From Massilia sp. PAMC28688 (GTDB taxonomy: Bacteria; Pseudomonadota; Gammaproteobacteria; Burkholderiales; Burkholderiaceae_D), in NCBI RefSeq assembly GCF_019443445.1, contig NZ_CP080378.1, positions 4,960,001-5,024,000 of the forward strand: a stretch of DNA of 64,000 nt. The letters are read 5' to 3'. The notes under the pieces are model-generated. The model did no database searches. It saw only the letters and a program-made list of their open reading frames with translations, and had not been told where the DNA came from. Both the position numbers and the translations under genes were made by a program. Shown piece by piece: positions 32,368 through 58,977 of the stretch; the first letter of the stretch is position 1; each line of letters opens with the position of its first letter.

Positions 32368-32377
32368 GAGGCCCATC

Positions 32378-35538: not shown

Positions 35539-36513
35539 ATGACGTCTCCCATCCTCCACCAGCATTTCGCTCCCCACTTCGACATCGCGGCCTGGTCGGC
35601 GGCGGGCGCGCAGGCCGGCATCCTGACGGAGAACCAGGACAATTTCCTGTTGATCGACACGGCCGGCAGCGCGTCCTTCCTGCGCGAGCAGCGCGTGTGC
35701 GCGGCACCGGTCACCAACTGGCCGCAGGGACACATCCGTGTCGCTGTGCTCGACGGCATGGGCGGGCATGGCTTCGGGCGGGAAGCAGCACAAGCCGTGG
35801 TCCAGGGTCTGCTCGACATTCCCGCCTGCACCAGCGTTGGCGCCCTGAGCCATCATCTGGACCACTTGCATGGACGGCTGCAGGCTCAATTCGGCAAGTA
35901 CACATCCCCCAGCCAGCGGCCCGGCACCACCCTGACCCTGCTGGAAATTCCCCCCGGCCAGCCGGCCCTGCTGTACCACGTGGGCGATTCACGGCTATAT
36001 CAATTGCGCCCGGGAATGGCGCCCCAGCCCCTGACCATCGACCACGTTCCGGCCACGGTCCATGCCATGGATGGCGCCCTGGACGACATGGACTGGTGGC
36101 AACAAGTGCACGGGGAACACCGCTCGCAGATTGCCCAGGCGTTCATCCTGGGCCACGCTTTCGGCCATACCGGGCAGATCAACGATCCGCTGTTTGCCCT
36201 GGCACCGGGCAATTTACCGGCATTTCTGGCGCATCTGCCGGACCGGCGGGTGCTGGCGCTCGATCCGGACAGTGTCTACCTGCTGGCCTCGGACGGTTTC
36301 TGGGCCTGCCCATCGCCCCAGCTGTGGCTGGCACGCTGGCCGGCCCTGCTGGCCCGGCACGGCAGCGCCGCCGCCATGTGCCATGCCTTGTTCGAGGCGA
36401 TGGAAACCGCACCCCCGCCGGATTTGCATCCCGACAATCTGACCGCCATCGTCCTGCGTCCTTTGCGTGCGCATGAGGTAACGGCGCTGCCCAGCGCGAC
36501 CGGGGCGCACTGA
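35539..36513 (+). CDS. PP2C-family Ser/Thr phosphatase
   Basis: 324 residues, cytosolic. All PP2C metal and phosphate motifs are present: ENQDNFLL, VLDGMGGHGFGREAA, GTTLTLLEIP, YHVGDSRLYQL, LLASDGFWACP and DNLTAIVL. In actinobacteria the equivalent enzyme (PstP) reverses PknA/PknB phosphorylation, and here a kinase lies 7 kb upstream and another 4 kb downstream. The FHA gene follows after 68 nt on the same strand. An insertion around residues 170-240 (DDMDWWQQVHGEHRSQIAQA) is longer than in most relatives. Confidence 0.9.
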   Translation: MTSPILHQHFAPHFDIAAWSAAGAQAGILTENQDNFLLIDTAGSASFLREQRVCAAPVTNWPQGHIRVAVLDGMGGHGFGREAAQAVVQGLLDIPACTSVGALSHHLDHLHGRLQAQFGKYTSPSQRPGTTLTLLEIPPGQPALLYHVGDSRLYQLRPGMAPQPLTIDHVPATVHAMDGALDDMDWWQQVHGEHRSQIAQAFILGHAFGHTGQINDPLFALAPGNLPAFLAHLPDRRVLALDPDSVYLLASDGFWACPSPQLWLARWPALLARHGSAAAMCHALFEAMETAPPPDLHPDNLTAIVLRPLRAHEVTALPSATGAH

Positions 36514-36581: not shown

Positions 36582-38090
36582 ATGAATAAATGCAGCAATC
36601 CAGAACATCCCCACTGCACGCAGTGGGTCATGCCGGGCGAGGCGGCCTGTGCCGGCGGCCACGCCCAGGCGGGTCAGGAGCCATCGAGCTTTGAGCTGAT
36701 CACGGCGCTGCGCCGGGCGCGCCCTGGCGTCGCCCCCAGCTACGCCCCCCCGGTGTACCCGGAGGCCAGCGCCACGCGAGCGGTGGCCGACAGCGCGCAC
36801 CTGCATATCAGCGGCTTCGATCCGCGCGCCGCCGGCGGACGCCAGTCGATCAAGGTCGAACTGCGCGGCCTGCCGCCCACCTGCGAGCCGCTAGTGACCA
36901 TGGAAATGCAATCGGCGCTGCTGCCCGAGGGGCGCGCGCGCCACACTTTTTCCCGCACCCTGCGTGGCGACTGGCGTCCCCTGTTCATTGAATTTTCCTC
37001 GCGCGACAAGGAACATGGCCAGTACCACATCAATGTGGAATTGACGTGCCAGAGGGATGGACGCGTCAATCACAAATGGGTATGTACGCTGGTGGTACTG
37101 GTGCCGCGTGCCGATGCTTCGCTGTCCGAGATTCACCAGACATTCCTGGCCTCGCACAAGAATGTACGCGTGATGGCCGATGACGCCTCGATTGCCCGCG
37201 TCAACGCCAGCACGTCCGGCGGGCGACTCGATATCGATGTGCATGCGCGCGACGCTTCGATTGCGCAGCTCAATCTGGACGACAAGCCGGGCAAGGTGGA
37301 CATGGGTTACTCCACCATTGCCTGGGACGAGGACCTGATCGAGATCGACGTTCCCGCCCACGCCACGCCCCATCCGCACCAGAGCGCCATGGCGTGCCTG
37401 GTCAATGCGGCGCCGGACGACGGCCAGCAGCGCCAGGTGCGCCTGTTCGCCATGGCCGAATGCGTGCTTGGCCGCTTCGAACTGTACGACCCGGAAGCGG
37501 ACGTGCTGCTGACCCACTTTGGTGACGATGGCCAGGACCGCGAGGGCCTGACCCGGCGCCTGTCGGGCCGCCACGCCGTGATCCGGCGTGGCGCCTGCGG
37601 CTTTGAAATCGAAGATGTCTCGCGTTATGGCTTGCTGCTGGACGGTGTCTGGCCCGGCAAGAACAAGGCTGTGCCCCTGCGGCAGGGCATGCGCATCGAA
37701 CTGACGGCCAGCATCAAGGACATCGTGGTGCTGGGTGTGACCGCCATGCTGCCCAACGGCGTGATCATGCACCGCCTGGACCAGGGGGCCAGCGCCGAGA
37801 GCTTCTACTTCCTCGAGCCTGGCCGCCATCCTGGCTTCCCGCTGGCGCCCGACAGTGCACTGCAGGCAGCGGCCCTGCCGGTCCTGTTCCACCAGCGTGG
37901 CGGCTTCTGGCACCTGGACCCGGTCACCGGACGCGAAACCGCGCTGACCCCGGCCACCCAGATGGACAAGCTGTGCCAGGTACCGGCGCACACGCGCTTT
38001 GCCGCCGAAGCCTATCCGGAGTGCTGGATTACGCGCTCGCAGCGCCAGCACCCGCAGGCAGCGTCACTGGTGGCCATGTACACCGCCTGA
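36582..38090 (+). CDS. FHA-domain protein with N-terminal Cys/His cluster
   Basis: 502 residues. The N-terminus holds CSNPEHPHC and CAGGH, a possible zinc-binding module. Residues about 60-170 form a beta-rich domain (GRQSIKVELRGLPPTCEPLV). An FHA domain lies near 285-385: VLGRFELYDPEADVL, RRLSGRHAVIRRGACGFEIE and DVSRYGLLLDGVWPGKNKAV, with the SGRH and (D)xSRYG motifs that bind phosphothreonine. The C-terminal 120 residues are unassigned. Adjacent to the PP2C gene, forming a phosphatase-reader pair. A terminator follows. Confidence 0.82.
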   Translation: MNKCSNPEHPHCTQWVMPGEAACAGGHAQAGQEPSSFELITALRRARPGVAPSYAPPVYPEASATRAVADSAHLHISGFDPRAAGGRQSIKVELRGLPPTCEPLVTMEMQSALLPEGRARHTFSRTLRGDWRPLFIEFSSRDKEHGQYHINVELTCQRDGRVNHKWVCTLVVLVPRADASLSEIHQTFLASHKNVRVMADDASIARVNASTSGGRLDIDVHARDASIAQLNLDDKPGKVDMGYSTIAWDEDLIEIDVPAHATPHPHQSAMACLVNAAPDDGQQRQVRLFAMAECVLGRFELYDPEADVLLTHFGDDGQDREGLTRRLSGRHAVIRRGACGFEIEDVSRYGLLLDGVWPGKNKAVPLRQGMRIELTASIKDIVVLGVTAMLPNGVIMHRLDQGASAESFYFLEPGRHPGFPLAPDSALQAAALPVLFHQRGGFWHLDPVTGRETALTPATQMDKLCQVPAHTRFAAEAYPECWITRSQRQHPQAASLVAMYTA

Positions 38091-38156: not shown

Positions 38157-38570
38157 TTACTGCACCGTCAGGATCACTTTCACGCTGTCGTCAACGGCCG
38201 ACTTGTCCATGTAGCCAATCGCGCTGACATCAGCGGCAATGGCTTTCTTCACTTCCGCCGCAGTCTTGAACTCCTTTGGCGCCGTGCCCTTGCCGGTAAA
38301 AACCAGCTTGGACCAGATGGACTTGACCTGGGCCGCGTCCTTCTGCAGCACCTTGGCATAGAACTCGTTGCGAATTGCCACGCCATCTTCGTATTCCACC
38401 GGCTTGAACACGGTCGACTTCCCGAGGAAGAACTGAGCGGCCTGCTCGCTGAACATCCGCGTGGCAGGATTCTTCGGATTGACCACCACCACCAGTTCGG
38501 CCGCCATCACGGGCGCGCTGCCCATTGCGAGGCCTGCGGCCACCATCATCAGTGCAAATGTCTTTTTCAT
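38157..38570 (-). CDS. small PstS-like periplasmic phosphate-binding protein
   Basis: 137 residues with signal peptide (MKKTFALMMVAAGLAMGSAP). ELVVVVNPKNPATRMFSEQA AQFFLGKS, SIWSKLVFTGKGTAPKEF and AIGYMDKSAVDDSVKVIL match the short phosphate-ABC-transporter substrate-binding relatives, about half the length of true PstS. Such proteins usually sit with a porin, as here (10 nt after the porin gene), and are not accompanied by an ABC permease. Ligand unproven. Confidence 0.8.
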   Translation of the reverse strand: MKKTFALMMVAAGLAMGSAPVMAAELVVVVNPKNPATRMFSEQAAQFFLGKSTVFKPVEYEDGVAIRNEFYAKVLQKDAAQVKSIWSKLVFTGKGTAPKEFKTAAEVKKAIAADVSAIGYMDKSAVDDSVKVILTVQ

Positions 38571-38580
38571 GTGGCTCTCC

Positions 38581-39777
38581 TTAGAATACGAAGTCGATGC
38601 CAACGGCAAAAACATTCACCGGGCCTTTGAAGCCTGGCTTCGGATTCACGAAACCGCCATGGCCATCTTCCGGCGTGATGTGGTCAAGCTGTGCCTTGAG
38701 CGCGGCCGAATCCTTGAAGTCCCAGCGTACGCCAATGGCGTGCGTATCGTTCATCGCTGCCTGGCCGGCCAGGGCCGCACCGGCTGCCAGCGGCGCCAGG
38801 GGACCGGTCGACGGCATCGACGGGAAGGTACGCGGACCATCCTGCTTGGCGCGGGCGTAGGAGTAATACGGCGTGAACTTGCCGGCGCGGTAGCCGAACA
38901 TGGCGTAGTACGAGGTCGAATCGGCAGCCACGCGCGAATCGGTGCGGCGCACTGCATATTCACTCTGGATCAGGAAGTTATTGTGATCCATCGTGAAGCC
39001 GGCCGACGTAAACGTGCCTTTGACGTCGGTGATGTCCAGCTCCTGGGCCACGGAGGTAAAGCCAAAGCGGTTCAGGCTGGCCAGCAGGGTGTTGAACGTG
39101 ACACTGTTATTGAGCGTGTATTTGCCGAAGGCGCGGCCCACGCGGAACGTGAACGGACCGTTTTCGACCACCAGGTGCAAGGCCGTGGCAGGCTTGAACG
39201 ATACGGTGGCGTCAGCCGACACGGGCGAATCGACGTTACCCACGGCGACCTGGCCGGTCACGCTGGTGTCGCCGAAGCTTTGCTGGTACAGGAAATCAAT
39301 GCCATCGAGCGCATCAAAGCTGACCTGGCGATAGACTTCAGCTGGCGGACGAATCATGGTGTTGGCATAGCCGACATTGCGGAAGTCCGAAATCATGTAC
39401 ACCGGCGCGCCAATACGGCCCACGCGAATGCTCAGCGAATCGGTAGCCTTGAACTTGGCAAACGCCCAGGCGACTTCGGCGCCAAAGTAACCGCGCGCGT
39501 TTTCGCGGGCCAAGCCCTGTGCGGTGAATGACAGGCTGTCATTGAATTTGGCCGTGGCCTGGATACCAAAAATGGAGTCGACGCTGGAGCGCGGGGATGT
39601 GCCGGCGCCCTTGAGCTGTTGTGGACGCGCGTATTCGGCGTCGTTATTGTCGCTCACGGTGACAGCGGCGGTACCGAAACCGCTGACGGTAACTGTTGGA
39701 CCGTCCGCCGCATGCGAGGTCAGGGCAAAGCCGGCGATCATTGCAGTTACCAGGGTAGAGCGTAGTGGGTGCTTCAT
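38581..39777 (-). CDS. outer-membrane porin
   Basis: 398 residues: signal peptide (STLVTAMIAGFALTSHAADG), then alternating beta-strands (VSGFGTAAVTVSDNN, DSLSFTAQGLARENARGYFG, LSIRVGRIGAPVYMISDFRN) and a C-terminal Phe (VFAVGIDFVF) recognised by the BAM complex. It resembles betaproteobacterial porins that accompany small phosphate-binding-like proteins. Substrate is unknown. Likely first gene of a two-gene operon. Confidence 0.85.
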   Translation of the reverse strand: MKHPLRSTLVTAMIAGFALTSHAADGPTVTVSGFGTAAVTVSDNNDAEYARPQQLKGAGTSPRSSVDSIFGIQATAKFNDSLSFTAQGLARENARGYFGAEVAWAFAKFKATDSLSIRVGRIGAPVYMISDFRNVGYANTMIRPPAEVYRQVSFDALDGIDFLYQQSFGDTSVTGQVAVGNVDSPVSADATVSFKPATALHLVVENGPFTFRVGRAFGKYTLNNSVTFNTLLASLNRFGFTSVAQELDITDVKGTFTSAGFTMDHNNFLIQSEYAVRRTDSRVAADSTSYYAMFGYRAGKFTPYYSYARAKQDGPRTFPSMPSTGPLAPLAAGAALAGQAAMNDTHAIGVRWDFKDSAALKAQLDHITPEDGHGGFVNPKPGFKGPVNVFAVGIDFVF

Positions 39778-40596: not shown

Positions 40597-42828
40597 CTAC
40601 AGGAGATTGCGCGCCACCCGGAAGCCGACAATATCATTGCTGAGATTAGCCGCGAACCCATTGCGCAGGGCCGAACGCAGGTAGCGCGGGTTGTAGAGCC
40701 ACGAGCCACCGCGCAGGATGCGCCTGCCCTGGTCACCGCCCTGCTCCCATGCCGACCCGTCGCCTGGGGCAGCTACATAATTATCGTGCACGACGTCCTG
40801 CACCCACTCCCACACGTTGCCGTGCATGTCGTACAAGCCCCATGGATTGGGCGCAAATTCGCCTGCCGGCGTCGTGCCCTTGCGGTAGACGCCTTTTGGA
40901 CTGCCGTTGTAACTGTAATTGCCGTCGTAATTGGCAAGGCCGGGATTGATCTCGTCGCCAAAGCTGAAGGCCGTCCTGGTACCTGCGCGGCACGCATACT
41001 CCCACTCGGCTTCGCTGGGCAGGCGATAGCGCTGACCGGTCTGTTCACTGAGCCAGTCTACATACCGCTGCGCGTCGTGCCAGGTCACACCCACTACCGG
41101 ATGCAGGTCGGTCTGGCGAAACCCGGGCGCCGCCCAATTCACTTCCCCCTCGCCGCGCCAGCCGGTTGCCAGCACGAATTCGCGCCACTGGCCTACCGTG
41201 ACGGGAAAGCGCCCCATGGCCACCGGGCGCTCAATGCCTACCCAGTGCTGCGGTACCTCGCGCTCGAGCCAGGACTGCTGGGCCCCGGCTTCCAGCGCCT
41301 TCTTGCGTTCATGCTCGGGCGATCCCATCTGGAAGCGGCCGGTGGGAATCAGGACCAGTTCCGGCCCGCTGCCCGAGCCGTCGCGGAAGCGGTCGCGCAG
41401 CACGCCCTCGGTATCGGCCACCGGACTGCTTGACGTGGGCAGCAGCGCCTCAAGTTCCGCGACATTGCGCGCCGCCAGTTCCAGGCGCGCGCGTTCCTGT
41501 TCGCTGCGATAGGCCGCCGCGGCGCGCGCCTGCATCGCCTTTTTGTTCCGCTCCTCCTTGTCGAGCCGAGCCTTTTCCGCATCCTGCTCGCGCCGCAGCA
41601 GCAGCTGGCGGCGCAGCGCCTCCTTGCGTTCCAGCCTGGCCTGCTCGGCCACCACGCGTTCGGCTGCTTCCTGCTCGCGGCGCTGCCTCTCGCGTGCCAG
41701 TTGCGCCGCCGCCAGTGCCTCCGACTCGGCCTTGCGGCGTGCAGCCAGCTGCGCCATGCGCTGCTGCTCCTGGGCCCGCGCGGCTGCCTGCTGCGCAGCC
41801 AGTTCCGTGGCCGACGGCTCGCGGGCGCTGCGCAATGCCTCCAGCAAGGCTGCGACCGATGCCGGCCGCGCCTGCGCATCCCACGCGAAACCGCCCTGCA
41901 GCACCTGCCACTGGCGCGCTGTCAATGCCTCCGGCCGGGGCGGCTCATGGCGTTCGCTGCGCAAGCCGTCAAATGGCATGCGGCCCTCCACCATCTGATA
42001 AATCATGACGGCGACCGCATACACATCGAGCGCGCGGCCGGGCTGCCGCTGCAGCGTGCCCGCCTCCGGCGCACGGTAACCGGCGGTGCCGGAATTGGCC
42101 GGCGCCTCCAGGCCAATGCTGCTGGCACTGCTGCGCGCACGCGCGGCAATGCCAAAATCGAGCAGCTTGATATCGCCCTTGAGGGTGACGAACACATTGC
42201 CCGGTTTGATATCGCGGTGGACCAGCCCGTGCCTGCTCCAGGCATAGTCGAGTGCAGCGGCCACCGGCTCCAGCAGCGCCTGGACCCGTTCGAGCGTGAG
42301 CGGGCCTTCCCGCGCCAGCAGACTATCGAGGTCCTCGCCTTCCAGGCATTCCATGATGATGAAGTAGCTGGCCGTGGCCGGGTCCTGGGCCCACTCGTAC
42401 ACGCGCACGATGTGTTCATGCGCCAGGCGCCGCGCCTGGGTGGCCTCTTCCACCAGCAGCTTGGCATGGGTGGCGCTGATTGTCAGCTGCGGCGGCAGGA
42501 CCTTGAGTGCCACCAGTGCACTGTGGCCCAGCTCCGCGTGGGTGGCCAGGTCGGTGGCCTGCCATACCTGTCCCATGCCGCCGTGGGCGAGCAGACGTTC
42601 AAGCCGGTAGCGCCGGTTTTGCGGACCAACCTCCTGTCCCGCCATGAGGCCGATCTCGGTGCCCTGGCGAGGCGCGGCGACTTCACCGGCCGGCGTGGCA
42701 GCGGCGACGGGGGGCGCGTACTCCGCATCCAGGATGGCGTTCTTGCGGCTGTCGAATTCGTGCTGGCTAAGCAGCCCGTCCTCGAACAAGGCGCGCAGTG
42801 TACGAAGCTTGTCGCGTGCCGTTTGCAT
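40597..42828 (-). CDS. SHOCT-Ser/Thr kinase-SUMF1 fusion protein
   Basis: 743 residues. N-terminal SHOCT motif (KLRTLRALFEDGLLSQHEFD), then a full Hanks kinase: LLAHGGMGQVW glycine loop, VALKVLPP lysine, LVHRDIKPGNVFV catalytic loop, LLDFGIAARA and GYRAPE. A coiled coil rich in Arg/Glu/Ala spans about residues 335-480. The C-terminal SUMF1/formylglycine-enzyme-like domain shows LVLIPTGRFQMGSPEHE, GVTWHDAQRYVDWLSEQTG, RLPSEAEWEYACRAG, GNVWEWVQDVV and RRILRGGSWL. The GNVWEWC cysteine is Val, so the domain may bind rather than oxidise. Starts 8 nt after the SPFH gene stop; GGACAG precedes the ATG. Confidence 0.9.
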   Translation of the reverse strand: MQTARDKLRTLRALFEDGLLSQHEFDSRKNAILDAEYAPPVAAATPAGEVAAPRQGTEIGLMAGQEVGPQNRRYRLERLLAHGGMGQVWQATDLATHAELGHSALVALKVLPPQLTISATHAKLLVEEATQARRLAHEHIVRVYEWAQDPATASYFIIMECLEGEDLDSLLAREGPLTLERVQALLEPVAAALDYAWSRHGLVHRDIKPGNVFVTLKGDIKLLDFGIAARARSSASSIGLEAPANSGTAGYRAPEAGTLQRQPGRALDVYAVAVMIYQMVEGRMPFDGLRSERHEPPRPEALTARQWQVLQGGFAWDAQARPASVAALLEALRSAREPSATELAAQQAAARAQEQQRMAQLAARRKAESEALAAAQLARERQRREQEAAERVVAEQARLERKEALRRQLLLRREQDAEKARLDKEERNKKAMQARAAAAYRSEQERARLELAARNVAELEALLPTSSSPVADTEGVLRDRFRDGSGSGPELVLIPTGRFQMGSPEHERKKALEAGAQQSWLEREVPQHWVGIERPVAMGRFPVTVGQWREFVLATGWRGEGEVNWAAPGFRQTDLHPVVGVTWHDAQRYVDWLSEQTGQRYRLPSEAEWEYACRAGTRTAFSFGDEINPGLANYDGNYSYNGSPKGVYRKGTTPAGEFAPNPWGLYDMHGNVWEWVQDVVHDNYVAAPGDGSAWEQGGDQGRRILRGGSWLYNPRYLRSALRNGFAANLSNDIVGFRVARNLL

Positions 42829-42836
42829 CTGTCCGT

Positions 42837-45062
42837 TCAGAGCGCAATCGCCGCGCCGCACTGGGCGCAGAACCGGTCGTTGGGTCCGGCCACATGGCCG
42901 TTGGGGCAGCTGCGCGCAGGCGGCCGGGTGCCTGCCTGCGCGCCCTGGGCCACGCCAATGCCCAGCTCCGACTGGCTTTTGAGCGCCGCCTTGTTGACAT
43001 CGTTCTGCGTGCCTAGCAGTTCCAGCTGGTGGCGGCGGTCCTTGTCCATTTCGGCGTCGCGCCTGGCCTGCTCGTGCTCCACCTGCGCGCGCGCTTCCTG
43101 GAATGCGTGGGCAGGGGTGACACTGTTGGTGGCGGCCACCACGCCCGACAGCGCGGCCAATTGCTCGGCACTCATGCCGGCGTGGACCTGGGTTTTCATG
43201 TAGTCCGCCAGCACCGCCGCATTCGGGCCCGAGGCCAGCGCCACCTTGGCCGTGTCGCTCATGGCGCCAATCGACTCGGCACGCGCAATCTCCACCCGCG
43301 CCACCTCAAGCTCGTGCGCCATGCGCGCGAAATGCTCGTCGCGCGCATGATCGAGACGGCGCAGCTCCTGCTGCCACGCGGCCTCCTGCTCCTGCTGGCG
43401 CAGCTTGTGGCGGCGCTCCTCGGCATCAAGTTCGATCTGGCGCGACTGGCGCGTGTGAATGCCGTCGGCTTCGATCGTGCGCAGCAGCTTTTCGTGCTGA
43501 GCGATTGACTCCGCCTGGGCGCCGCTGCGCCGCATGTCATCAATTTTCTGGGTGACTTCCTCGACGGCAGCCCGGCCGCTGGCGTCCTTGAGCGCATCTT
43601 CGCGCATCAATTCACGCTGGCGGTCCAGCGCCAGCTGCTCTTCCCATTCGGCGATCCGCTCAAGCTCGCGCTTGCGGGCCAGGTTGGCCAGGGCCAGACC
43701 CTGCCAGCGTGCAGTATGCTCCTCGCGCTCGATGTCGTCCTCGCGCGCCTGGGCCGCCTTCTGCTTCTCGTGCAGGCGTGCCAGCTCCGCGCGCTTGCGC
43801 GCCTCGTCTTCGACGCTGAGCGCCTGCGTGATCTTGTTGGCGATCTGCTGCTGCAGCAGCTGGTGCGAAAAGCGCTGCTGCGCCAGCGCTCGCGCTTCGT
43901 TGGCATTGCGCTGCGCCAGTTCAAGCTCGGTACGCATGTGGATCTGGGCCAGGTGACGCAAATGCGCCCACTGCGCCGATTCATCCTGGCGCGCCGCCCC
44001 CTTCTTGGCCAGTTCGTGTTCCAGCTCCGCCACCACTTCGCCGGCACCGCGGTCGATCGCCTGCTGGCGGTTTTTGGAGTCGGCAATGCGGCCATACAAC
44101 TCGATTTCGCGCGCCCGGATGGCGTGCATGCGTTCCTGCTGCTGCAGCGTCATTTCCGCGCGCTCGACACCTTGCTCATTGTGCATCTCCGCACGGCGAT
44201 GGCGCACGCGCGCTTCCTGCTCCTCGCGCCAGATGTCCTGCCATTCTTCTTCGTTGTACAGCTGGTCGAGTTGCTTGGCATGTTCGAGCTGCACGTGACG
44301 CTCGTCCGCCACCAGATACAGGCTGCCGACGCGGGCGCGGTTGGCGTCAAATTTATCGTGCTGCAGCACCAGCGTCTCGACCTGTACCACCGCCAAGCCG
44401 TATTGCGCCAGCCGCATCTTGAGCGAACCTTGCAGGCGCTCGTCGAGCTGGGGCCGCAGGTCGCGGTTGCGCGCCATGTCGCGGATCGGCTGGGACGCGA
44501 TAAACTCGGCGGCCAGCTGGCGCACCGAAGGCGAGAGCAGTTCGCGCAGGTGCTCGCTGGTGACAGTGCCGGGCATGGTCATGAAGTGGCGCGCAAAGGC
44601 ACTGACCTGGTCCACCTTGACGCTGACGGTAAAGCGCGCCGACACTTTGAGATGCTCGGCCGTCTCCAGATCATCGAATGCGAAAGGCACCGCAATGGCG
44701 GAACTGCGGGTGATCAGGATTTCGGCGTGCTGGTCGCGCAGCAGATGATTCAGGCGCGTGAAGAAGCCTTCAATTTCGTATTCCCCCTGCGGCACTTCGG
44801 TTGCCTTGTCCCCTTGCAGGATGTAGGCCCTGGTGGTGGCGGGCACGCGCAACGTCTTGACGAACAGACCTGACAGTTCGCGCACGCCGAAGAAGACCGC
44901 CAGCTCATTGTCGGCAGGGATCCAGCGATTGTCACGGAAAATAGGTTCGCTGCGGGCCGCGCCAAGGGTCAGGCCGCACTGGGCGCAATAGCCCGAATCG
45001 CCGGCATTTTTATGCTCACAGCGCGGGCACTTGACGCCGCCAAATCCAAACATCTGGAACAT
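42837..45062 (-). CDS. zinc-ribbon SPFH-like coiled-coil protein
   Basis: 741 residues. An N-terminal zinc ribbon (CPRCEHKNAGDSGYCAQCG) leads to an SPFH/band-7-like domain at about 40-265 (RVPATTRAYILQGDKATEVP, KVSARFTVSVKVDQVSAFAR, LAQYGLAVVQVETLVLQHDK). A very long helical region (about 270-640) follows, and the protein ends in a second Cys cluster (SCPNGHVAGPNDRFCAQCG). It lacks a membrane helix, unlike HflK/prohibitin. SPFH proteins build ring or cage scaffolds around proteases. It is followed at once by the kinase-SUMF1 gene and preceded by the Lon-like gene after 101 nt, so all are probably one operon. GGAGTTCAGT precedes the ATG. Confidence 0.75.
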   Translation of the reverse strand: MFQMFGFGGVKCPRCEHKNAGDSGYCAQCGLTLGAARSEPIFRDNRWIPADNELAVFFGVRELSGLFVKTLRVPATTRAYILQGDKATEVPQGEYEIEGFFTRLNHLLRDQHAEILITRSSAIAVPFAFDDLETAEHLKVSARFTVSVKVDQVSAFARHFMTMPGTVTSEHLRELLSPSVRQLAAEFIASQPIRDMARNRDLRPQLDERLQGSLKMRLAQYGLAVVQVETLVLQHDKFDANRARVGSLYLVADERHVQLEHAKQLDQLYNEEEWQDIWREEQEARVRHRRAEMHNEQGVERAEMTLQQQERMHAIRAREIELYGRIADSKNRQQAIDRGAGEVVAELEHELAKKGAARQDESAQWAHLRHLAQIHMRTELELAQRNANEARALAQQRFSHQLLQQQIANKITQALSVEDEARKRAELARLHEKQKAAQAREDDIEREEHTARWQGLALANLARKRELERIAEWEEQLALDRQRELMREDALKDASGRAAVEEVTQKIDDMRRSGAQAESIAQHEKLLRTIEADGIHTRQSRQIELDAEERRHKLRQQEQEAAWQQELRRLDHARDEHFARMAHELEVARVEIARAESIGAMSDTAKVALASGPNAAVLADYMKTQVHAGMSAEQLAALSGVVAATNSVTPAHAFQEARAQVEHEQARRDAEMDKDRRHQLELLGTQNDVNKAALKSQSELGIGVAQGAQAGTRPPARSCPNGHVAGPNDRFCAQCGAAIAL

Positions 45063-45163
45063 ACTGAACTCCTGTTAATCAATCAGCACTGCCATATGCC
45101 GCCACTCTGCTTTGATTCTAGCAGGGACGGCCCCTCTTCCGATGCACACGCCGGCGCGCGGGC

Positions 45164-46156
45164 CTAAATGATGCCAATCCGGTCGATCCACGCAACGCTG
45201 GCGCCCTTTGCCCGCAGCGCAGCGGCGAACTGCGCACCGGCGCCCTCTTCCCAGGCCAGCGGCAACAGCACCCGGTCGCCCGCCACCGCCTCGCGCAGGA
45301 TCAGCGCGCACTTCGCGGCCCGTTCTTCCACCGCTTCCACCAAGCCAGCATGCCAGGCGCTGGAACAGCCGCTGGCGATGACGCGCGCGCGCGGCACGAA
45401 TTCGCGTCCACGCGCCAGGCGATCTGCCATCACCAGTGCCAGCTCAAACGAATTGCCAGTAAAACGCGGCTGGGCGAACCGCACGACAGTGCGCCAACGT
45501 CCCACGCCACGGCCATCAAAGTGCCGCGCGCCAGCCAGGACGCGCCGCACCGACTGCAGCGTCACCGCATCAAGCCCGGGCACGGCAATGCTGTCTTCCT
45601 CCTCGCCGCCGGCCTGCTCCACTGGATACACGCTGACCTCCACAAAAGTCAGGCTGTCGTTGGCGCCGCCGCTGTGCAGCGGAAACCAGGCGCGGGCCGC
45701 GGCCACGCTGGCACCATGATCCGGCTGGCCAGTCAGTGCACCGAGAAATTGCAGGCCCCCGGCGCCGCCGGCAATGGCCCCCTGTGGTGCGAAGTCATGG
45801 CCATCCACCCGTCCCAGCTGCCACTGCGCAGACCAGCCGTTGGCATGCACCGGGGCGGGACTGTCCCACACGCCGCGCAGGCGGCGGTCGGCCAGTACAG
45901 CTGCCAGCTCCCAGTCGCGTTCACCGGATGCAGGAACCGGATCGATGCTGATCACGACCTGGTCCCGGCTGTCCAGGCGCGGCTCGGTATGGCGCGCCAG
46001 GCGCACCACGCGCTGCATGTGCGCGGCCAGCGCGGCGTCGGGGACGGCGCATTTCACGTCAGCGCGCCCAGCGCGCGGGCGGCGCGTGGCAGTGACGGTG
46101 GCCACGCGCCCGTCGCCCAGCGTGGTAAGGCATTGCGCCGTGTCTGGGCGGCTCAT
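45164..46156 (-). CDS. Lon (S16)-like domain protein without ATPase
   Basis: 330 residues, soluble. The C-terminal half reads PRFTGNSFELALVMADRLAR, then RARVIASGCSSAWHAGLVEA and VEERAAKCALILRE, GDRVLLPLAW. This follows the Lon protease-domain plan: Ser in a G.S..LAL helix, ATG-like strand, then Lys before the hydrophobic strand. Candidate dyad Ser236 and Lys282, 46 apart (Lon has 43). The N-terminal half repeats the plan loosely (GERDWELAAVLADRRLRG, APVHANGWSAQWQLGRV) without the Ser. It has no AAA domain, so unfolding would have to come from elsewhere. Starts inside the preceding gene's stop (ATGA). The homology is my reading of the pattern. Confidence 0.5.
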   Translation of the reverse strand: MSRPDTAQCLTTLGDGRVATVTATRRPRAGRADVKCAVPDAALAAHMQRVVRLARHTEPRLDSRDQVVISIDPVPASGERDWELAAVLADRRLRGVWDSPAPVHANGWSAQWQLGRVDGHDFAPQGAIAGGAGGLQFLGALTGQPDHGASVAAARAWFPLHSGGANDSLTFVEVSVYPVEQAGGEEEDSIAVPGLDAVTLQSVRRVLAGARHFDGRGVGRWRTVVRFAQPRFTGNSFELALVMADRLARGREFVPRARVIASGCSSAWHAGLVEAVEERAAKCALILREAVAGDRVLLPLAWEEGAGAQFAAALRAKGASVAWIDRIGII

Positions 46157-47151
46157 GGCGTGGCGCGCCGGGTGGCGCAGTGAAGTTCCAGATTGGCCGC
46201 GATGCGGTCCGCGTCGTCCAACAGCGCCGCAGGAGAATGCGCCAGTCGCGCCAGCAGCGACCAGGCCTCGTCCAGCGCCAGCGCCGCCTCTTCGCTGGCC
46301 TGGGCACGGATTGCCTGGCCGGCGGCATCGAGCTTGCGGCCAGGCCCCACCAGGCCGAGCGCCGGCATGGTATTGATTGTCAGCGCCACATGGTCCAGCC
46401 GCTGCAGCAGCAGCTGTTGGCGCTGGAAGTGCCCCTGGCCCTCGGGCAGCGGGAGCTGGCGCAGCGCGCTAGCCAGTGCTGGCAGCTCCAGGAACAGGCG
46501 GCGCAGCGCCAGTGCATCGGCCGCCGCAGGCGCCCTGGCCACCCTGTCCGCACCTGGCGCCGGCAGTACGGCCGGTGTTGACGCGCTCTCGCGCAGGAGC
46601 CGTGCGTAGTCGACCTTCTCGCCCAGGTCCACGGGAATGCAGTCGTCGACCGTGATCCCGAAGCGCTGGTACAGGAGCCGATTGAGGCCAGCGCGAAAAG
46701 CGTCCCATTCCTCCGGCGTGGTGCATGGCGGCAGTTCCAGGTTGCCCTGCGCCAGTTCGCGCTGCACTGCCGTGCCGATCAGGGCAGCGAAATCGTCCTT
46801 TGTGACGCGCTCGCCCCCCTCGCTGACCAGATACAAATCAAAACGCTGCTGTGCCACGCGCGGATCGGGCGCATCGATGACGAAGGAAAGCTGCAGGCCC
46901 AGTTCAGGGGAGGCGGCAAACGGCGCAAACTCGGTGGTGTAGGGGCCCGGATGAAAACACCACGCCTCACCTGCGGGAAAGCGAGCGCCAGGCGCGATGC
47001 GCGACAAAGTGCCCTCGGCATCGCAGCTGACGCCCATGCACGAAGCGGGCACGATGGCGCCCTGCGCCATGCGCAGTGCAAGCGTATCCATTCCCAGCGC
47101 GCCGCCATGGCGGGTGGCGGGGACAGGAGCGCGCTTGAACAAGCCAAACAT
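46153..47151 (-). CDS. SPFH-like protein, partner of the zinc-ribbon SPFH gene
   Basis: 332 residues, soluble. The N-terminal 190 carry LQLSFVIDAPDPRVAQQRFD LYLVSEGG, DDFAALIGTAVQRELAQGNL and FRAGLNRLLYQRFGITVDDC IPVDLG. This order of strand, helix and RFG-strand matches the SPFH domain of the downstream 741-residue protein. The C-terminal 140 are helical (RRLFLELPALASALRQLPL, QRQQLLLQRLDHVALTINTM). No membrane helix. The stop of the 177-residue gene abuts this start and its own stop overlaps the Lon-like gene, so the genes are coupled. SPFH assignment tentative. Confidence 0.5.
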   Translation of the reverse strand: MFGLFKRAPVPATRHGGALGMDTLALRMAQGAIVPASCMGVSCDAEGTLSRIAPGARFPAGEAWCFHPGPYTTEFAPFAASPELGLQLSFVIDAPDPRVAQQRFDLYLVSEGGERVTKDDFAALIGTAVQRELAQGNLELPPCTTPEEWDAFRAGLNRLLYQRFGITVDDCIPVDLGEKVDYARLLRESASTPAVLPAPGADRVARAPAAADALALRRLFLELPALASALRQLPLPEGQGHFQRQQLLLQRLDHVALTINTMPALGLVGPGRKLDAAGQAIRAQASEEAALALDEAWSLLARLAHSPAALLDDADRIAANLELHCATRRATP

Positions 47152-47685
47152 TCAGCGCACCGGTTCGACGGAAAAGCCAGCGCCGTGCTGATGGAAATGC
47201 AGCGCCGGCTCGGTGTCGAATGGCCAGCCGGCCTCGCACTCGCCATCGGCGTCGAGCTGCCCCTCCAGGACCACGTTGCCGGCATCATCGTTTACCCGCA
47301 CGGCGCCACCGCGCAGCAGCTCACGCGCGAACGGCGCGCCCGCGTCGAGCGCCACGATGACGCGCCAGGACTGCTGATCGGGTACAAAATGCAGCGTCCA
47401 CATGCCGTCATCGGTGGCGATGGCATCCAGCGGCGTGTTCCCGGCCGCGACCCGCAGCATGCCCCGGCTGCCCTGCCACGATGCGGCGCGCTGCTGCGAG
47501 AGCGTGCGCAGGCGCCGCAGCGTCAGGGGGGAGGCTTGAAGGGCGGCGCGTTCACCGGCCGTCAGGTGGCGCGTGCCGTCCAGCGCCGCGCGCAGCACAT
47601 CGTCTGCCAGCACCAGCCGGTCCTTGTCCACCCGGCGTCCGAGCAGGAGCCGCTGCTGCAATCTGTAATCGGTTTGCTCTGTCAT
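47152..47685 (-). CDS. hypothetical protein of SPFH/kinase operon
   Basis: 177 residues, no signal peptide or membrane helix. The first half is helical and basic (RLLLGRRVDKDRLVLADDVL), the second half beta-rich (DDGMWTLHFVPDQQSWRVIV ALDAG, AVRVNDDAGNVVLEGQLDA). No family recognised. It starts in an ATGA overlap with the upstream gene and its stop directly abuts the SPFH-like start, so it is surely co-expressed. The N-terminus resembles a short anti-sigma/regulator helix bundle only in general shape; no function is proposed. Confidence 0.6.
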   Translation of the reverse strand: MTEQTDYRLQQRLLLGRRVDKDRLVLADDVLRAALDGTRHLTAGERAALQASPLTLRRLRTLSQQRAASWQGSRGMLRVAAGNTPLDAIATDDGMWTLHFVPDQQSWRVIVALDAGAPFARELLRGGAVRVNDDAGNVVLEGQLDADGECEAGWPFDTEPALHFHQHGAGFSVEPVR

Positions 47686-48959
47686 CGCTCGTTTTCCTTT
47701 TGTGGTACCGCAGCCTGTAGCCGCGCGATCGCCGCGTCGCGCCGTTTGCGCAGGGTTGGCAGTGACACCCCGTCCAGCACCGCCAGCTGCGCCATGGTTG
47801 GCAGTTCGCCGGTGGCCGGATCGCGCCAGTCGGCCGGATAGGTCTCGTCGGCCGGCCCCAGCATCTTCAGGTACACCGCCAGGCGCACCGCCATCGATTC
47901 GGCGGCCAGCAGCCTGCCGCTCCAGCTGTCGACCTGCTGCGCTGCCCGCGCCAACTGCATGAAGCGGGGGGGCAGTGAAAGGCTGGTGGCGGCAAAGCGC
48001 TCGGCATCGCTGCCATCGTCCGGTGCAGGGTCGGGCGCGACGTCTTCCGGCTCCTCCGGCGGATCAGCGGCGACCAGCCGGTCAGGCTCTTCGTTGGCTG
48101 GCGCGTCCAGCACCCGCCACAGGTCTTCCATCCACTGACCTGCCTCGCTGGCATCGGACAGCCATTCCTGGTCGCGATTGGACGACAATTCCTCATAGTC
48201 CCCAATCTCCGCCATCATTTCAGCAATGCGCTCGGGATTGTCCTTGAGGGCGGCGAATCGCTTGGAGCGCGTGTGCAGTGGGCCGGGACCTGCGCCGAAG
48301 TGTTCCAGCGACCCGCTCCAGCCCATCACCCACTCCGGTTTGCACAAGGCGATGGATTTCATCTGGCGCGCCTCGATCGGCATCGCATTGACCTCGCGTC
48401 CGAGTATCGCACCGACCTGCTCACGGTGAGCCTCCCAGTCGCCAAAAAGCCGCGCGATGTCGCTGTAGGCCGTATCGAGCATGCGATAGCCATACATCCG
48501 GTTAGGGCTGCAAGGGCGGCCGCAGGCAACCTGGTAGTTATCCGAATCCACCTTGTCGCGCAGGACCGCAAACATGTCATTGACCTTCTTGCGCAAGATG
48601 GCGTCGCCCCCGGGGGCGTGCCAGAACGGGCCGAGGCGCGCATGTTCGCCGGCCACTGCGGCGCGAAATGCGCTCCAGTCGGGGCGCCGGGCCTGCAGCT
48701 CGAAGAGCAGGCTGAGGGCGAGCTCGGACACGCTCTCGCCATAACTATTACCGGCCGCCTGGGCGCGGGAAGACCGTGCGCCGGCGTGCAGCGTCTCGCT
48801 CACCAGATCGGTATAGAGCGCCAACTGGTCGGCTTCCTGGTCCGGGTCCAGCAGCAGTGCCGGATCGGAACGGGCGAACGCATCCAAAAAGGCGCGTCCC
48901 AAAAGCTTGCGCACTTCTTCCCATCCGTGTTCCTGGTACCGGGTTCCCGGCAGGCGCAT
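47682..48959 (-). CDS. HTH-ended protein, first gene of SPFH/kinase operon
   Basis: 425 residues, soluble. The N-terminal 200 are helical (KLLGRAFLDAFARSDPALLL, MYGYRMLDTAYSDIARLFGD), a Pro/Asp/Glu-rich linker lies at about 300-330, and the C-terminus (GELPTMAQLAVLDGVSLPTL RKRRDAAIARL) is a helix-turn-helix like region 4 of sigma factors or small DNA-binding domains. No family recognised. As first gene it could be the operon's regulator. Start at 48959 chosen because CGAGGACTGT precedes it; the longer frame upstream encodes Cys/Phe-rich sequence that looks non-coding. Confidence 0.55.
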   Translation of the reverse strand: MRLPGTRYQEHGWEEVRKLLGRAFLDAFARSDPALLLDPDQEADQLALYTDLVSETLHAGARSSRAQAAGNSYGESVSELALSLLFELQARRPDWSAFRAAVAGEHARLGPFWHAPGGDAILRKKVNDMFAVLRDKVDSDNYQVACGRPCSPNRMYGYRMLDTAYSDIARLFGDWEAHREQVGAILGREVNAMPIEARQMKSIALCKPEWVMGWSGSLEHFGAGPGPLHTRSKRFAALKDNPERIAEMMAEIGDYEELSSNRDQEWLSDASEAGQWMEDLWRVLDAPANEEPDRLVAADPPEEPEDVAPDPAPDDGSDAERFAATSLSLPPRFMQLARAAQQVDSWSGRLLAAESMAVRLAVYLKMLGPADETYPADWRDPATGELPTMAQLAVLDGVSLPTLRKRRDAAIARLQAAVPQKENER

Positions 48960-49090: not shown

Positions 49091-49241
49091 CAGGGTCAGA
49101 CCACTTAAACGTCGAATTTGCAACAGTCGGCTCAGCCAACGCGGCGATTCTCCGAATAACATTCGGGCCCCGGTTTAAGCCTGGAAGAAAATTTTGATTG
49201 ACCACGATCTTGCATGGTCATAACGGATGTGGTCAGACCAC
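49091..49241. repeat. inverted-repeat unit A1 (GGTCAGACC family)
   Basis: Begins AATTTCCT-N5-CAGGGTCAGACCACTT (49078-49106) and ends with GTGGTCAGACCAC at 49229-49241, itself palindromic. The two cores are 137 nt apart. Lies in the 540-nt gene-free stretch between the SPFH operon and the metalloprotease gene. Confidence 0.75.
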
Positions 49242-49284
49242 GCAGGGTGATCACGATTCGATCTGATCAACAATTTCCTACAAC

Positions 49285-49437
49285 CAGGGTCAGACCACTT
49301 TTCCTTGGCTTGTGCAACGATGGATTCGGCTGAAAGGTGTCGAAATCGAATGAAGAGCAAAAAAACTGGCTGACCGCCAAACACAATTCTGATTTTGCGA
49401 AATGTTGCCCGACAGGCCCTCTAGTGGTCTGACCACT
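49285..49437. repeat. inverted-repeat unit A2 (GGTCAGACC family)
   Basis: Same left end, AATTTCCT-N5-CAGGGTCAGACCACTT (49272-49300), and right end AGTGGTCTGACCACT at 49423-49437, cores 138 nt apart. The interior shows no clear identity to unit A1, so only the ends are conserved. Confidence 0.75.
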
Positions 49438-49499: not shown

Positions 49500-50126
49500 T
49501 CACTCAATACGTTCAATCGCCAGCGTGGCATAAGGACTCTGGGGAACATTGCCGTAGAGCGTGGCCAGCACGTTCCAGAACAGCGGCGAGATCGCCACCT
49601 CGCCGTCGAAACCGTCGAAGTGGTGTGCAAGGCCCAAGGCGTGGCCGAGCTCATGTATCACTGTCTCTTCCGTGATGAAGCAATCACACGGTTCCGCTCC
49701 ATGGCTGTCATGACCGATATTGATAATCGCAGCCTCGATCAGACCATCCTCGTTCGAAGCAATCGGCTCGCCCTGTTGGATCCCGACCGATACGTTAGCC
49801 GCCCTATCTTGATACCGCTCCCCCTTGCCCGGAAGCGTGGCCGTGCCGAAGTTGACCCAGATCGGACTCGCACTCGCAGCCCCGCCCGCGCTCGCGTCGA
49901 GCTGCAGGCGACCGGCGCCCATTTTCCCGTTCAGCGTGTTGATCGCGTCCCGCACCGTCTGCGCGCAGCTTTCCCACCTGGGGTCACTGGGGTGCCGGAC
50001 CCAGATCCGGACCGTGTTGCCGGCCCAGCGAGACGTGGTGGCCGCACCGGCGGCGGCCTTCACGTTGCTTGATTCAAGCTCTCTTCGGATATCCTCATCC
50101 GTGTGGCACCAGGCGATCGTCGTCAT
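49500..50126 (-). CDS. metzincin metalloprotease (matrixin-like)
   Basis: 208 residues. EETVIHELGHALGLAHHFD contains HExxHxxGxxH, the zinc site of metzincins. Upstream strands (NTVRIWVRHPSDPRWESCAQ, ASPIWVNFGTATLPGK, AAIINIGHDS) fit a matrixin/astacin-like core. No signal peptide or propeptide is visible, odd for this group; the product could be exported another way or act in the cytosol. It follows the PBP gene by 78 nt on the same strand and is next to a repeat cluster. Substrate unknown. Confidence 0.78.
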   Translation of the reverse strand: MTTIAWCHTDEDIRRELESSNVKAAAGAATTSRWAGNTVRIWVRHPSDPRWESCAQTVRDAINTLNGKMGAGRLQLDASAGGAASASPIWVNFGTATLPGKGERYQDRAANVSVGIQQGEPIASNEDGLIEAAIINIGHDSHGAEPCDCFITEETVIHELGHALGLAHHFDGFDGEVAISPLFWNVLATLYGNVPQSPYATLAIERIE

Positions 50127-50204: not shown

Positions 50205-53200
50205 TCATTGGCGCCGCGACCCGCTCATCCCCGCTAACACCGATGCCACCACCGGCGCCGCGTGTTCCCCGCCCGTTCCCTCGGAATGGCTCACAAATGC
50301 AGCCAGCGCCAGGCGCCGCTTTTCGCCCGGGATGGTGTCCGGCTCGAGCCAGGCGGTAAACCAGACTGTCGCCAATTCACGCTGACGCCCGTCGTCCATG
50401 GTCACAATGGCCGGCGATGTCCCGGTTTTGCCCGACAAACCGCGCTTCACCTGCGCCAGGGCAGGCGCCTTGAACGCGGCGGCAGCCGTGCCGTCATCCA
50501 CCACGCCTTTCATGCCGGCCCGGATCCGGTCCAGCCGCACGCCCAGTTCCGCCCCTGATGCTGCCTGCGCCTCATCGCCGTCAAGGTCGAGCAGCAGGCG
50601 TGGCGCAATCACCCTGCCCTCGCCAATGGCACCGGCCACCATTGCCATGTGCAGCGGCGTGGCCTGCATGCGCAATCCTATGGCCATCTGGCGCAGCTCA
50701 TGGCGCGTGCGGACCGGGTCGATGCGCGCCCGGCCAGGCTGCAGCGCGTCCCACTGCTGCCAGCGAAAGCCTTCTGGCAGCAGCCCGCCGTCAAGGCGCA
50801 ACTGCCGCTCGAATCCCAGCCGATGCGCCATCGCCACCACCGGCCGCACGCCGTCAAGCGCGCCCGGTTCCAGCGCCCGCAGATCAGGGGCGCCGCCTTC
50901 GGCCTGGCCCAGAAGTGTGCGGTCCGACATTTCACCCAACCACGCGAACCAGGTATTGAGGCTGTGGACCAGCGCCTCGGACAAGCCAAGCCGCCCATCG
51001 CGCGCCCTGTGGTCCAGGTGTCCATCCCGGTAGTTGGTGATCCTGGCCTGGCGCGGTGCCACGGGATAGGTCGCCGCAGCCGTCTGGAAGTCGAACCCCT
51101 TGCGACTGGCCACCCGATTGAGTGCCGGCAGCGCCATCCCTTCCAGAAGAGAGGCCATCTGCTGATCCTCGCGGGCCGCCAGCTCGAGACCGAGCGCAGT
51201 GACGATCTTGAAGGTCGAACCCGGGCTGCGATGCACGCCTCCATCGTGCTGAAGGGCCGGAAGGCGCAAGGGACTACGATCGGGATTGGCACGGTCGAAG
51301 TCGCGCACTTCGTCCCAGTTGCCGGCGGTGACATCAGCGCCACCGCTGCCGGCGGCAGCGAGGATGTCGCCGCTGCCGGTATCGATAATCACCATGCCGG
51401 CGCGGCGCCCGTCCGGAATGGCACGCCCTGCGCTGCAGGCGACGCCGTCCCACTGGCCGCGCCGCATGCCGATGCAATCGAGGGCCTGTTGTGCCGCCTG
51501 CTGCATGGGCAGGTCCAGTGTCAGCCTCGCTTCGTGCGGCTTGCCGTTAAAGGCCGGCAGTCGCGCGAGCATGCCCGCCACACTGCTGGTGTGCTCCGCG
51601 CGCAGACCCAGGAGCGGTGCCAGGCCCGCCCTGGACGCAGCTGGCGTGGGACTGCCAGCGCGCCACATCAGGGTACCGTGTCGGTCACGCAGCACCACCC
51701 CCGCCGGTTCGGCAGCCCGCGCCACTGCGCTGGTGGCGTTCAGAGTCCGCCACCCGAGCTGTCCCCCGGCCACATGAAGATGGCGGTATTGATCGGCAGC
51801 GCCACCGGCCAGCGCCCCCATCGCCAGGGGCGCGACCGTCAGTGTGACACTGCGCCGCCCGCGTGCCACGTCCACGCTCACCTGCTGCACCGAGTCCGGC
51901 GAACGGCACGCACGTCCCGTGCAAGCCGCGCGCGGAGCCTGTGCGAGGCGGCCGCCATCGACCCGCAGCACGCGGCCCACGAGCAGCATGTCCAGACGCT
52001 GTCCCCCGCGTTCCGGCAAATGCACGGTGAGCTGCGCATCGCCATGTGCATCCCCTGGCCAAGCCGCGGCACGCTGCCATGCGGACCACCCTTGCGGCAC
52101 CTGCGCAAACAGCCGCGCCGCCGCCAGGGGAAGCTGTTCGGCAGTGGGCACCGGTACGCCGCCCACGCTTGCCTGCCAGCGCGCTGCCGCAAAGCCCGGG
52201 CGCACCCGCCACGCCAGCAAACGCCGCTCGTTATTGAAAATGCGGACTTGCTCGCGCACATAAGCACCGTCCGCCATCCTGTAAAGACGCTTGAACAGCC
52301 GCGCGGCGTCGTCGTTCTCGGCCAGAACGGGCCAACCGTGCAATGCACTGGCGTGGGCGCGCTCGGGCGCCCGCTGCCAGGCCCCCAGGTCGCGCGGCGC
52401 CACCTCCACCAAGCCGCTCGAACCGAGGCGAACCAGGCCATGCTCGTGCAGCTGCCGGAACATGGCCTGGTCTTCAAGGCTGGCGCGAGCGGCGAGCGGG
52501 ACCTGGTGAGCGCCCGCTGGCAGCGAAGTGGCAACCGGCCGCCCGTGCCTGGGCAGTCCGAAAACCTGAGCACGTGGCGATGGCTCGTCCGTTTTCCGAA
52601 ACGCCTGCACCAACAATTCCCCGCTTGAGGGGCAGTCGCGGCTGGCCCGGCGCTGCACCCGTAGGGCGCCTTCACTTGCGATCAGCCAGCCTTCATTGTT
52701 CAAACCTGGACCAGGTCCATCACTGACCCAACGCGCGTTTGCCGGCTCCCAACGGACTGTGAGCGGTGCATCGCCACTCGCCTTGCCGGAAATTTCCAAT
52801 TGCGGCAGGCCAGCATTCGCCGAGGAAAGTACGGCATTTCGCATTGGCAGCTTTTTCTCTGCCAGGGCGCGCAATGTTTCCCAAGAGTATCCAATCCGCA
52901 CCGGAACAAGTTCTCCGGCGCCGCCGCGCTGCTCGCACAAGTCGATGCGCACCGGTTCTGCCCCATGCATGCCCGTCACCATGACCAATTCTGCGTCCGC
53001 ATGAGAAACGATGTGCGCGCCGGGCTCGCGCGGCACATCGATGACGACGCCCGGCACCACCGGCTGCAGTATGTCCAGTGCGACCGCTGTCGTGGTTTCC
53101 GCGGCGTCGTTCGACGGCCCCACCGCCGCGCTTAGGTGGCGTGCATGACCTGCCAGCAGCAGCGCACCAGCCAGCGCCGCTGCGCTCGCGGCCAGTCCCG

Positions 53201-58901: not shown

Positions 58902-58977
58902 GATGGTAAAGAGTGCACCGCGGATACCAACGTGGCATCGGAAAGCGCAAATTTGTCAGGCGGCCATTGCCAAGAAC

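Follow-up and report, generated by a model that had tools for sequence, protein, structure and literature searches.

The 64,000-nt stretch of Massilia sp. PAMC28688 analysed here (contig NZ_CP080378.1, positions 4,960,001 to 5,024,000 of the forward strand; hereafter the window) contains what looks like an undescribed envelope-control system in soil bacteria. A first-pass annotation had described six close-packed open reading frames (ORFs) on its minus strand between positions 40597 and 48959, and the ORF listing agrees. The six make up one arm of a ~26-kb locus, whose other products include a third SEDS protein, a class B penicillin-binding protein (PBP), a second Ser/Thr kinase, a PP2C-type phosphatase and an FHA-like protein. 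Five of the six, in the order helix-turn-helix (HTH)-like protein, 177-aa protein, SPFH-type protein (SPFH'), S16 (Lon-fold) protein and SPFH protein, form the core common to all 35 loci compared. We tentatively propose, from sequence, predicted structure and analogy, that the locus encodes an SPFH-scaffolded, ATP-independent protease with a phospho-signalling module that would control an accessory peptidoglycan synthase. The genes and parts of the six-gene arm are as follows.

47682-48959, minus strand: gene 1, 425 aa, with a C-terminal HTH-like segment seen by eye (ORF listing and 13-row alignment)
47152-47685, minus strand: gene 2, 177 aa, the most widely detectable partner of the S16 gene (ORF listing; profile match in G856, a genome of the same phylum)
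46153-47151, minus strand: gene 3 (SPFH'), 332 aa, with a predicted SPFH-type domain at residues about 29-182 (47067-46606) and C-terminal helices
45164-46156, minus strand: gene 4, 330 aa, tandem S16 protein
About 46108-45782, minus strand: degenerate S16 copy of gene 4
45706-45167, minus strand: full S16 domain of gene 4, residues 151-330
45449-45451 and 45311-45313, minus strand: codons for S236 and K282 of gene 4
42837-45062, minus strand: gene 5, 741 aa, with a Band_7 domain (Pfam) at residues 124-229 and CxxC zinc-ribbon motifs near both ends
40597-42861, minus strand: gene 6, 754 aa (743 from the ATG at 42828), with, by Pfam, a SHOCT domain (below cut-off), a Ser/Thr kinase domain at 85-302, a linker and a domain of the formylglycine-generating enzyme (FGE)/SUMF1 type at 499-751

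The loci compared were picked by the S16 gene and comprise those of 29 of 37 Massilia-type genomes, that of G001 (another genus of the same family) and five named loci (L031-L035) that may repeat genomes of the family draw; the window's own genome (G000) and G011, G108, G138, G148, G159, G170 and G181 were left out. Gene order was identical throughout, with genes 1-5 in 35/35 loci and all six in 34/35, the first five only being found in G001. Three copies of gene 6 are unusual: in G003 the contig ends inside it, in G018 a large insertion divides it, and in G171 its full length shows only on reading the ORF. The ORF reading and this comparison confirm that the six-gene set exists, is kept and is laid out as one operon, as the first-pass annotation had stated; its suggested gene-neighbourhood survey found the genes grouped together in the loci seen rather than occurring separately, and both folds that it had predicted, SPFH and S16, were recovered. 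Accessory to this core are the kinase-FGE gene and the wall synthase, which can be lacking (G001, G182), and in Chitinilyticum the kinase-FGE protein is replaced by caspase-FGE proteins. Pfam names only two of the six proteins over its cut-offs (741 and 754 aa) and found an ATPase domain in none of the six, and a hydropathy scan predicted no transmembrane (TM) helix in any of them.

Alignment and structure prediction indicate that the 330-aa protein is a tandem S16 protein, with a degenerate first copy and a second copy carrying invariant Ser236 and Lys282. The two copies fill the protein and leave no ATPase domain, and the ATPase-less Lon-like protein of the earlier description is borne out by the fold, the dyad and this absence. 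Both residues were present in 60/60 aligned and 27/27 locus proteins, and a GxS motif in 161/161 homologues examined; the first copy's equivalent of Ser236 (residue 81) is Asp in 46/60 and Ser in 0/60. Ser236 is predicted to lie just before a helix and Lys282 within one, and Lon places its Ser-Lys pair at such helix positions. The fold of residues 151-330 is that of the S16-type domains of Lon, RadA and ComM, and the Lon dyad is matched by motif and secondary structure, not by model geometry. Unlike Lon, the protein has no ATPase of the LonA/LonB AAA+ type and pairs a degenerate with an intact copy; it is classed as an S16-fold protein and not as a Lon protease. Single-sequence hhalign gave no match between the S16 family and the host's Lon, hmmsearch with the S16 profile gave none to PDB sequences at E<=10, and Pfam Lon_C did not match the 330-aa protein even at E<=10 in a search of its own genome. 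The S16 and 332-aa families are both shallow (Neff about 2-3).

The claim that the operon encodes two SPFH-type proteins is also supported, in one case by Pfam and in the other by predicted fold only. The 741-aa protein, by its sequence matches, is a zinc-ribbon SPFH protein: Band_7 scores 27.2 bits against a Pfam cut-off of 23.6, the zinc-ribbon matches fall below their cut-offs, and its 570-aa homologue in G001 scores 29.6 bits for Band_7. An SPFH fold for the 332-aa protein is moderately supported by modelling; it has no predicted TM segment, and hhalign gave no match between the 332-aa and 741-aa families.

Gene 6 was expected to encode a kinase with a binding-type FGE/SUMF1 domain, and the motifs agree with this. 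The kinase domain retains VALK, HRDIKPGN and DFG. The FGE domain has PvdO as its closest PDB sequence (E 1.6e-43) and lacks the catalytic cysteine pair of formylglycine-generating enzymes: the motif region RGG[SA]WLY.PRYLR, which we take to be the position of that pair, is without Cys in the window and 20 relatives. Over the last 52 residues of the FGE domain, mean identity to the window was 83% in 20 of the 24 Massilia-type loci L031-L054, the four excluded including G171, which is more divergent there. Diversification of the FGE domain by a diversity-generating retroelement was set aside on this conservation, G171 excepted (no reverse-transcriptase search was made). SHOCT domains are most often joined to Band_7 proteins, and one SHOCT-kinase-FGE protein is on record (PMC3581485, from an excerpt), which suggests that the kinase may dock on the SPFH assembly.

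The other genes of the ~26-kb locus lie upstream of the HTH gene or on a convergent arm.

50205-53315, minus strand: class B PBP, 1036 aa, with STFK700, SLN785, KTG963 and one N-terminal TM segment
27435-28520, plus strand: second Ser/Thr kinase, 361 aa, without a TM segment, with a non-RD catalytic loop YLDLKPAN
28460-31036, plus strand: SEDS (RodA/FtsW-like) protein with an extra N-terminal TM segment and soluble domain of about 260 aa
30856-32367, plus strand: 503-aa protein without a Pfam match over cut-off (30.5% identity, E 4.8e-64, to a 635-aa Chitinilyticum ORF)
32249-32839, plus strand: SH3_3 protein with two hydrophobic segments
35539-36513, plus strand: 324-aa phosphatase of the PP2C type, by a Pfam match and an NCBIfam Stp1 match (E 3.7e-9), each under its cut-off
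36582-38090, plus strand: protein of 502 aa in which residues around 320-400 look FHA-like by eye, with one weak match

The PBP gene lies upstream of the HTH gene in 33/35 loci (not G001 or G182), 100-309 nt apart by match ends. Stretches longer than 30 kb were retrieved for G001 and 17 other loci; in these 17, the convergent genes for the FHA-like, SH3 and 503-aa proteins and the second kinase were found in 17/17, SEDS in 16/17 and PP2C in 15/17. Over the whole set the 502-aa FHA-like gene was seen in 29/35 loci; the six without it are G001 and five loci represented by short stretches. The 3' end of the SEDS ORF overlaps the 503-aa gene, and the hydropathy scan finds hydrophobic segments in the SEDS, PBP and SH3 proteins. 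As the host already has two SEDS proteins (337.9 and 331.5 bits, against 72.7 bits for that of the locus), the locus adds a third. Neither the SEDS protein nor the PBP matched PDB sequences at E<=0.01. The soluble N-terminal part of the SEDS protein (residues about 49-312; ORF at 28460-31036) is itself FHA-like by eye, without Pfam support.

The S16 gene and this SEDS gene travel together. Among 195 genomes drawn from the family, 40 matched S16 at E<=0.001, of which 37 are Massilia-type, one is the distant G001 (E 1.3e-23) and two were marginal and dropped (G049, 1.5e-4 with internal stops; G191, 7.1e-4); named matches belong to Massilia, Telluria, Pseudoduganella, Duganella, Janthinobacterium and Chitinilyticum. 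At E<=1e-20 the SEDS gene was detected in 35 of the 37 genomes of Massilia type, against 0/158 others. In a draw of 250 genomes of the order it occurred in three (G000, G018 and G330), all three with the S16 gene. The two Massilia-type S16 genomes without it are G091, whose S16-bearing contig is 10 kb long, and G182. In the latter the SEDS gene is reduced to a possible relic of 16 residues between the kinase and 503-aa genes, and no trace of the PBP gene was found in the 59 kb fetched; the six genes, second kinase, 503-aa, SH3, PP2C and FHA-like genes are all retained. The missing SEDS and PBP genes would sit about 15 kb apart, and their joint absence ties this SEDS to this PBP; retention of the rest suggests that it functions without them. 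A comparison with candidate empty sites ran into contig ends: the contig of G125 ends inside the flanking RNase H gene, and that of G005 shows only the MFS gene, 2.8 kb from its end.

Further afield, profile matches were few. Counting the window's own genome, the HTH profile matched 5/349 genomes of the order and 2/398 of the phylum, and a more diverse S16 profile 3/398 of the phylum; these surveys scored at most five candidates per genome, so that misses are possible. In the family of G330 the HTH profile matched 1/43, G330 itself. A search for S16 relatives in the family of G856 gave 18/99, G856 and 17 weak matches; the latter start past query residue 190, in the hydrophobic, Sel1-like part, and for this reason were not taken as S16 relatives.

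The distant relatives differ in content. G001 has HTH-177-SPFH'-S16-SPFH only. In Chitinilyticum (G330), of another family, most parts are rearranged over about 42 kb beside a tyrosine integrase: HTH, 177, SPFH' and S16 genes, an FtsK-type ATPase, FGE, SH3 and zinc-ribbon SPFH proteins, SEDS, a Ser/Thr kinase, PBP, PP2C and the 635-aa homologue of the 503-aa protein, together with three caspase-FGE proteins, a sigma-70/FGE fusion, an M23 peptidase and an SLT-LysM transglycosylase. The SEDS proteins of the window and Chitinilyticum are 33% identical over most of their length, with the Asp of the VQDDF/VQNDF motif kept, and the PBPs 36% identical, with STFK, SxN and KTG kept. In G856 a 177-like gene (profile E 8.5e-13) directly precedes an S16-like gene (E 3.5e-11); set against the wrong neighbours, these profiles gave 0.02 at best, and the ORF standing where HTH would be was not recognisable (0.16). 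The S16-like protein of G856 has a single S16 copy with Ser and Lys aligned at the dyad positions, contains a segment that looks hydrophobic by eye, and matches Sel1 weakly. From these contents 177-S16 is the widest detectable pair, followed by SPFH' and SPFH; the outer layers comprise the wall synthase, the phospho-signalling parts and the FGE effectors.

Two further features of the Chitinilyticum island may be recorded. Directly after the S16 gene (L083, 2069-6193) come an FtsK/SpoIIIE-type ATPase, several short proteins and an FGE protein, a set that we take to be reminiscent of type VII-like sets. The ORF joining sigma-70 regions 1.2 and 2 to FGE (L084, 8621-9676) is either a recombination product or a real fusion.

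The first-pass annotation had viewed the operon as an HflKC/FtsH-like system with swapped parts and knew of no described system with this set. HflKC-FtsH and prohibitin-m-AAA join SPFH assemblies to membrane AAA+ proteases, whereas the six proteins include no membrane AAA+ metalloprotease domain; the SPFH and Lon-like parts of that view stand, but the operon is neither self-contained nor simply such an analogue. Its linkage to the SEDS/PBP pair, second kinase, PP2C and FHA-like protein makes the six-gene frame too narrow. The absence of a precedent was upheld in that full-text searches for the set or its parts, made in open-licence PubMed Central papers, turned up no description of the set (subscription papers and preprints lie outside this scope).

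Partial precedents were nevertheless found. STOPP proteases have a ClpP/crotonase-like fold, in contrast to the S16 fold of the locus candidate. The likeness to the STOPP-stomatin pair lies in arrangement, here known from genes alone: an SPFH gene adjoins the gene for an ATPase-less Ser-Lys protein, in the order 332-330-741 in 35/35 loci. In Pyrococcus horikoshii such an archaeal SPFH protein and Ser-Lys dyad protease are encoded together (PH1510/PH1511) and the protease cleaves the SPFH C-terminal region; that system has one SPFH protein rather than two, and the available excerpt describes no kinase, HTH or wall genes with it (PMC3795559). For the wall genes, the actinobacterial pstP locus links fhaA, fhaB, pstP, rodA, pbpA, pknA and pknB and gives a precedent for a phospho-switch on a SEDS/PBP pair (PMC6554272, from an excerpt). 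The linkage of PP2C, kinase, SEDS and class B PBP is shared with our locus. Its kinases differ from the TM PASTA type, neither having a predicted TM segment or PASTA match, and the locus is Gram-negative, has a SEDS protein that is accessory, the third of the host, and extended by an N-terminal domain, and adds SPFH, S16, HTH and FGE parts. The Bacillus subtilis YdjI/PspA operon places an SPFH protein lacking a TM anchor in an envelope-stress operon, with PspA and YdjG/H as partners and not a protease or kinase (PMC8581546, from an excerpt).

Drawing on the STOPP-stomatin and pstP-locus precedents and the SHOCT association, we propose a mechanism, every functional step of which we infer. The SPFH proteins would build a membrane-apposed scaffold or cage holding the S16 protein as an ATP-independent processing protease, with the kinase docked to the cage. 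The kinase would be switched when its FGE domain binds a ligand or a cue of envelope stress, or when it clusters through SHOCT; the resulting phosphorylation, for which the FHA-like protein would be the reader and which PP2C would reverse, would turn on the dedicated SEDS-PBP synthase on site, this synthase being an optional output. The HTH protein, held by the 177-aa protein, may be freed or destroyed by the S16 protease, so adjusting transcription. A peptidoglycan theme is consistent with this, the PBP motifs being intact in both the window and Chitinilyticum, the SEDS Asp kept, and a transglycosylase and M23 peptidase present in the island. It is also conceivable, although doubtful, that the locus typifies a new class of envelope machine, in which a two-SPFH cage of a pseudo/active tandem Lon-fold protease is coupled to a phospho-relay with an FGE receptor and a third SEDS-PBP synthase; a sister form with caspase-FGE executioners would then use the one scaffold for wall building or death.

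Several observations weigh against the proposed mechanism. Co-occurrence of SEDS and S16 was seen within related genomes, and its Fisher P of 1e-36 ignores ancestry. No SEDS, PBP, FHA-like or kinase-FGE gene was found within the 60 kb fetched for G001, nor any SEDS match in that genome at E<=1e-20; with the core alone in G001, and no synthase in G182, the core must also act without a wall synthase. G106 and G133 showed no PP2C near the locus, and a search of Chitinilyticum for the FHA-like protein gave nothing at E<=1e-3. The FHA nature of the 502-aa protein is weakly supported by TIGR03354 at E 0.017, below its cut-off, with no Pfam match at E<=10. The roles given to the HTH and 177-aa proteins are impressions from sequence, with weak Pfam matches, and the S16 copy finds its closest structural counterparts in the Lon-like domains of RadA and ComM.

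The main rival is a role in cell suicide or defence, in which the FGE domain would sense invaders, such as phage, and the fused kinase or caspase would kill or arrest the cell, the wall enzymes being part of the killing or of protection from it. We consider this unlikely. In predicted conflict systems, VMAP ternary systems and STAND loci linked to diversity-generating retroelements among them, FGE lies C-terminal to signalling or effector domains (PMC7159879 and PMC10907252, in excerpt), as it does here, but the FGE domain of our locus is mostly conserved, and Pfam found no vWA, MoxR, VMAP or STAND domain in the window genes scanned (not every ORF) and no nuclease domain in the locus genes scanned. 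The caspase-FGE proteins next to an integrase in Chitinilyticum, and the TIR, TPR-S, caspase and endonuclease genes within about 10 kb of the 177-S16 pair of G856, do leave room for a death or defence role. By contrast, the genes flanking the Massilia-group loci are for the most part shared, over the extent of sequence fetched, and no S16-type gene was found in plasmid or phage records with one S16 query, or relative in viral contigs with a profile scan; together with the conserved FGE end, this argues against a fast-evolving sensor in that group. PADLOC gave no match for the four novel families, and kinase-model matches only for both kinases, plus a weak line for PP2C. The genes near the G856 pair (L092, 178-17279) encode TIR, TPR-S, DNA/RNA non-specific endonuclease and caspase-PDZ proteins.

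Another explanation concerns the S16 protein. RadA and ComM Lon-like domains are not known to be proteases, and their place at the top of the structural list would fit a non-proteolytic ring, the S16 protein acting as a ring-forming scaffold in a structural assembly. This seems improbable given the invariance of Ser236 and Lys282, aligned even in the single-copy G856 protein, their Lon-like helix positions, and the loss pattern confined to the degenerate copy, all of which favour the proposed protease. It is very unlikely that two unrelated neighbouring modules (SEDS/PBP/phospho-signalling and SPFH/S16/HTH) were linked once in an ancestor and inherited together, as the solitary five-gene core of G001 and the constant relative layout of the halves in the 17 longer Massilia-group loci might suggest, since Chitinilyticum has both in one island in another layout, the six-gene arm contains the PBP partner of SEDS, G182 lacks SEDS and PBP alike, and within the family draw SEDS was never seen without S16.

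If SPFH-scaffolded, phospho-regulated envelope control is correct, SPFH assemblies, an ATP-free Lon-fold protease and Ser/Thr phospho-signalling would be united in one Gram-negative circuit, and G182 would offer a natural case of an extra SEDS-PBP synthase going missing as a unit. The locus makes it testable whether an S16 domain can be a protease without an ATPase, how SPFH cages affect their proteases, and how kinases switch SEDS-PBP synthases outside Gram-positive and actinobacterial cells.

As to genes 1 and 2, the N-terminus of gene 1 (MRLPG.RYQE) is nearly invariant over the 13 aligned rows; the window protein has no Pfam match at E<=1, and one of the 13 family members has a weak match to HTH_36 (E 0.0098). 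A sigma/anti-sigma reading of the two genes was considered and is without Pfam support. Between the convergent arms (38157-39777) lies a gene pair that is porin-like and phosphate-binding-like by eye, present in 5/35 loci and sometimes doubled; Pfam gave nothing for the porin-like ORF at E<=0.01. A 208-aa metzincin-like ORF with weak zinc-protease matches (49500-50126) lies between the PBP and HTH genes of the window and was found in 0/35 related loci compared. The palindromic repeat GTGGTCTGACC occurs in two clusters (49094-49436, in the gap upstream of the HTH gene, and 58740-59139), with 11 matches at <=1 mismatch against 0.93 expected, and these are possibly copies of one repeat element.

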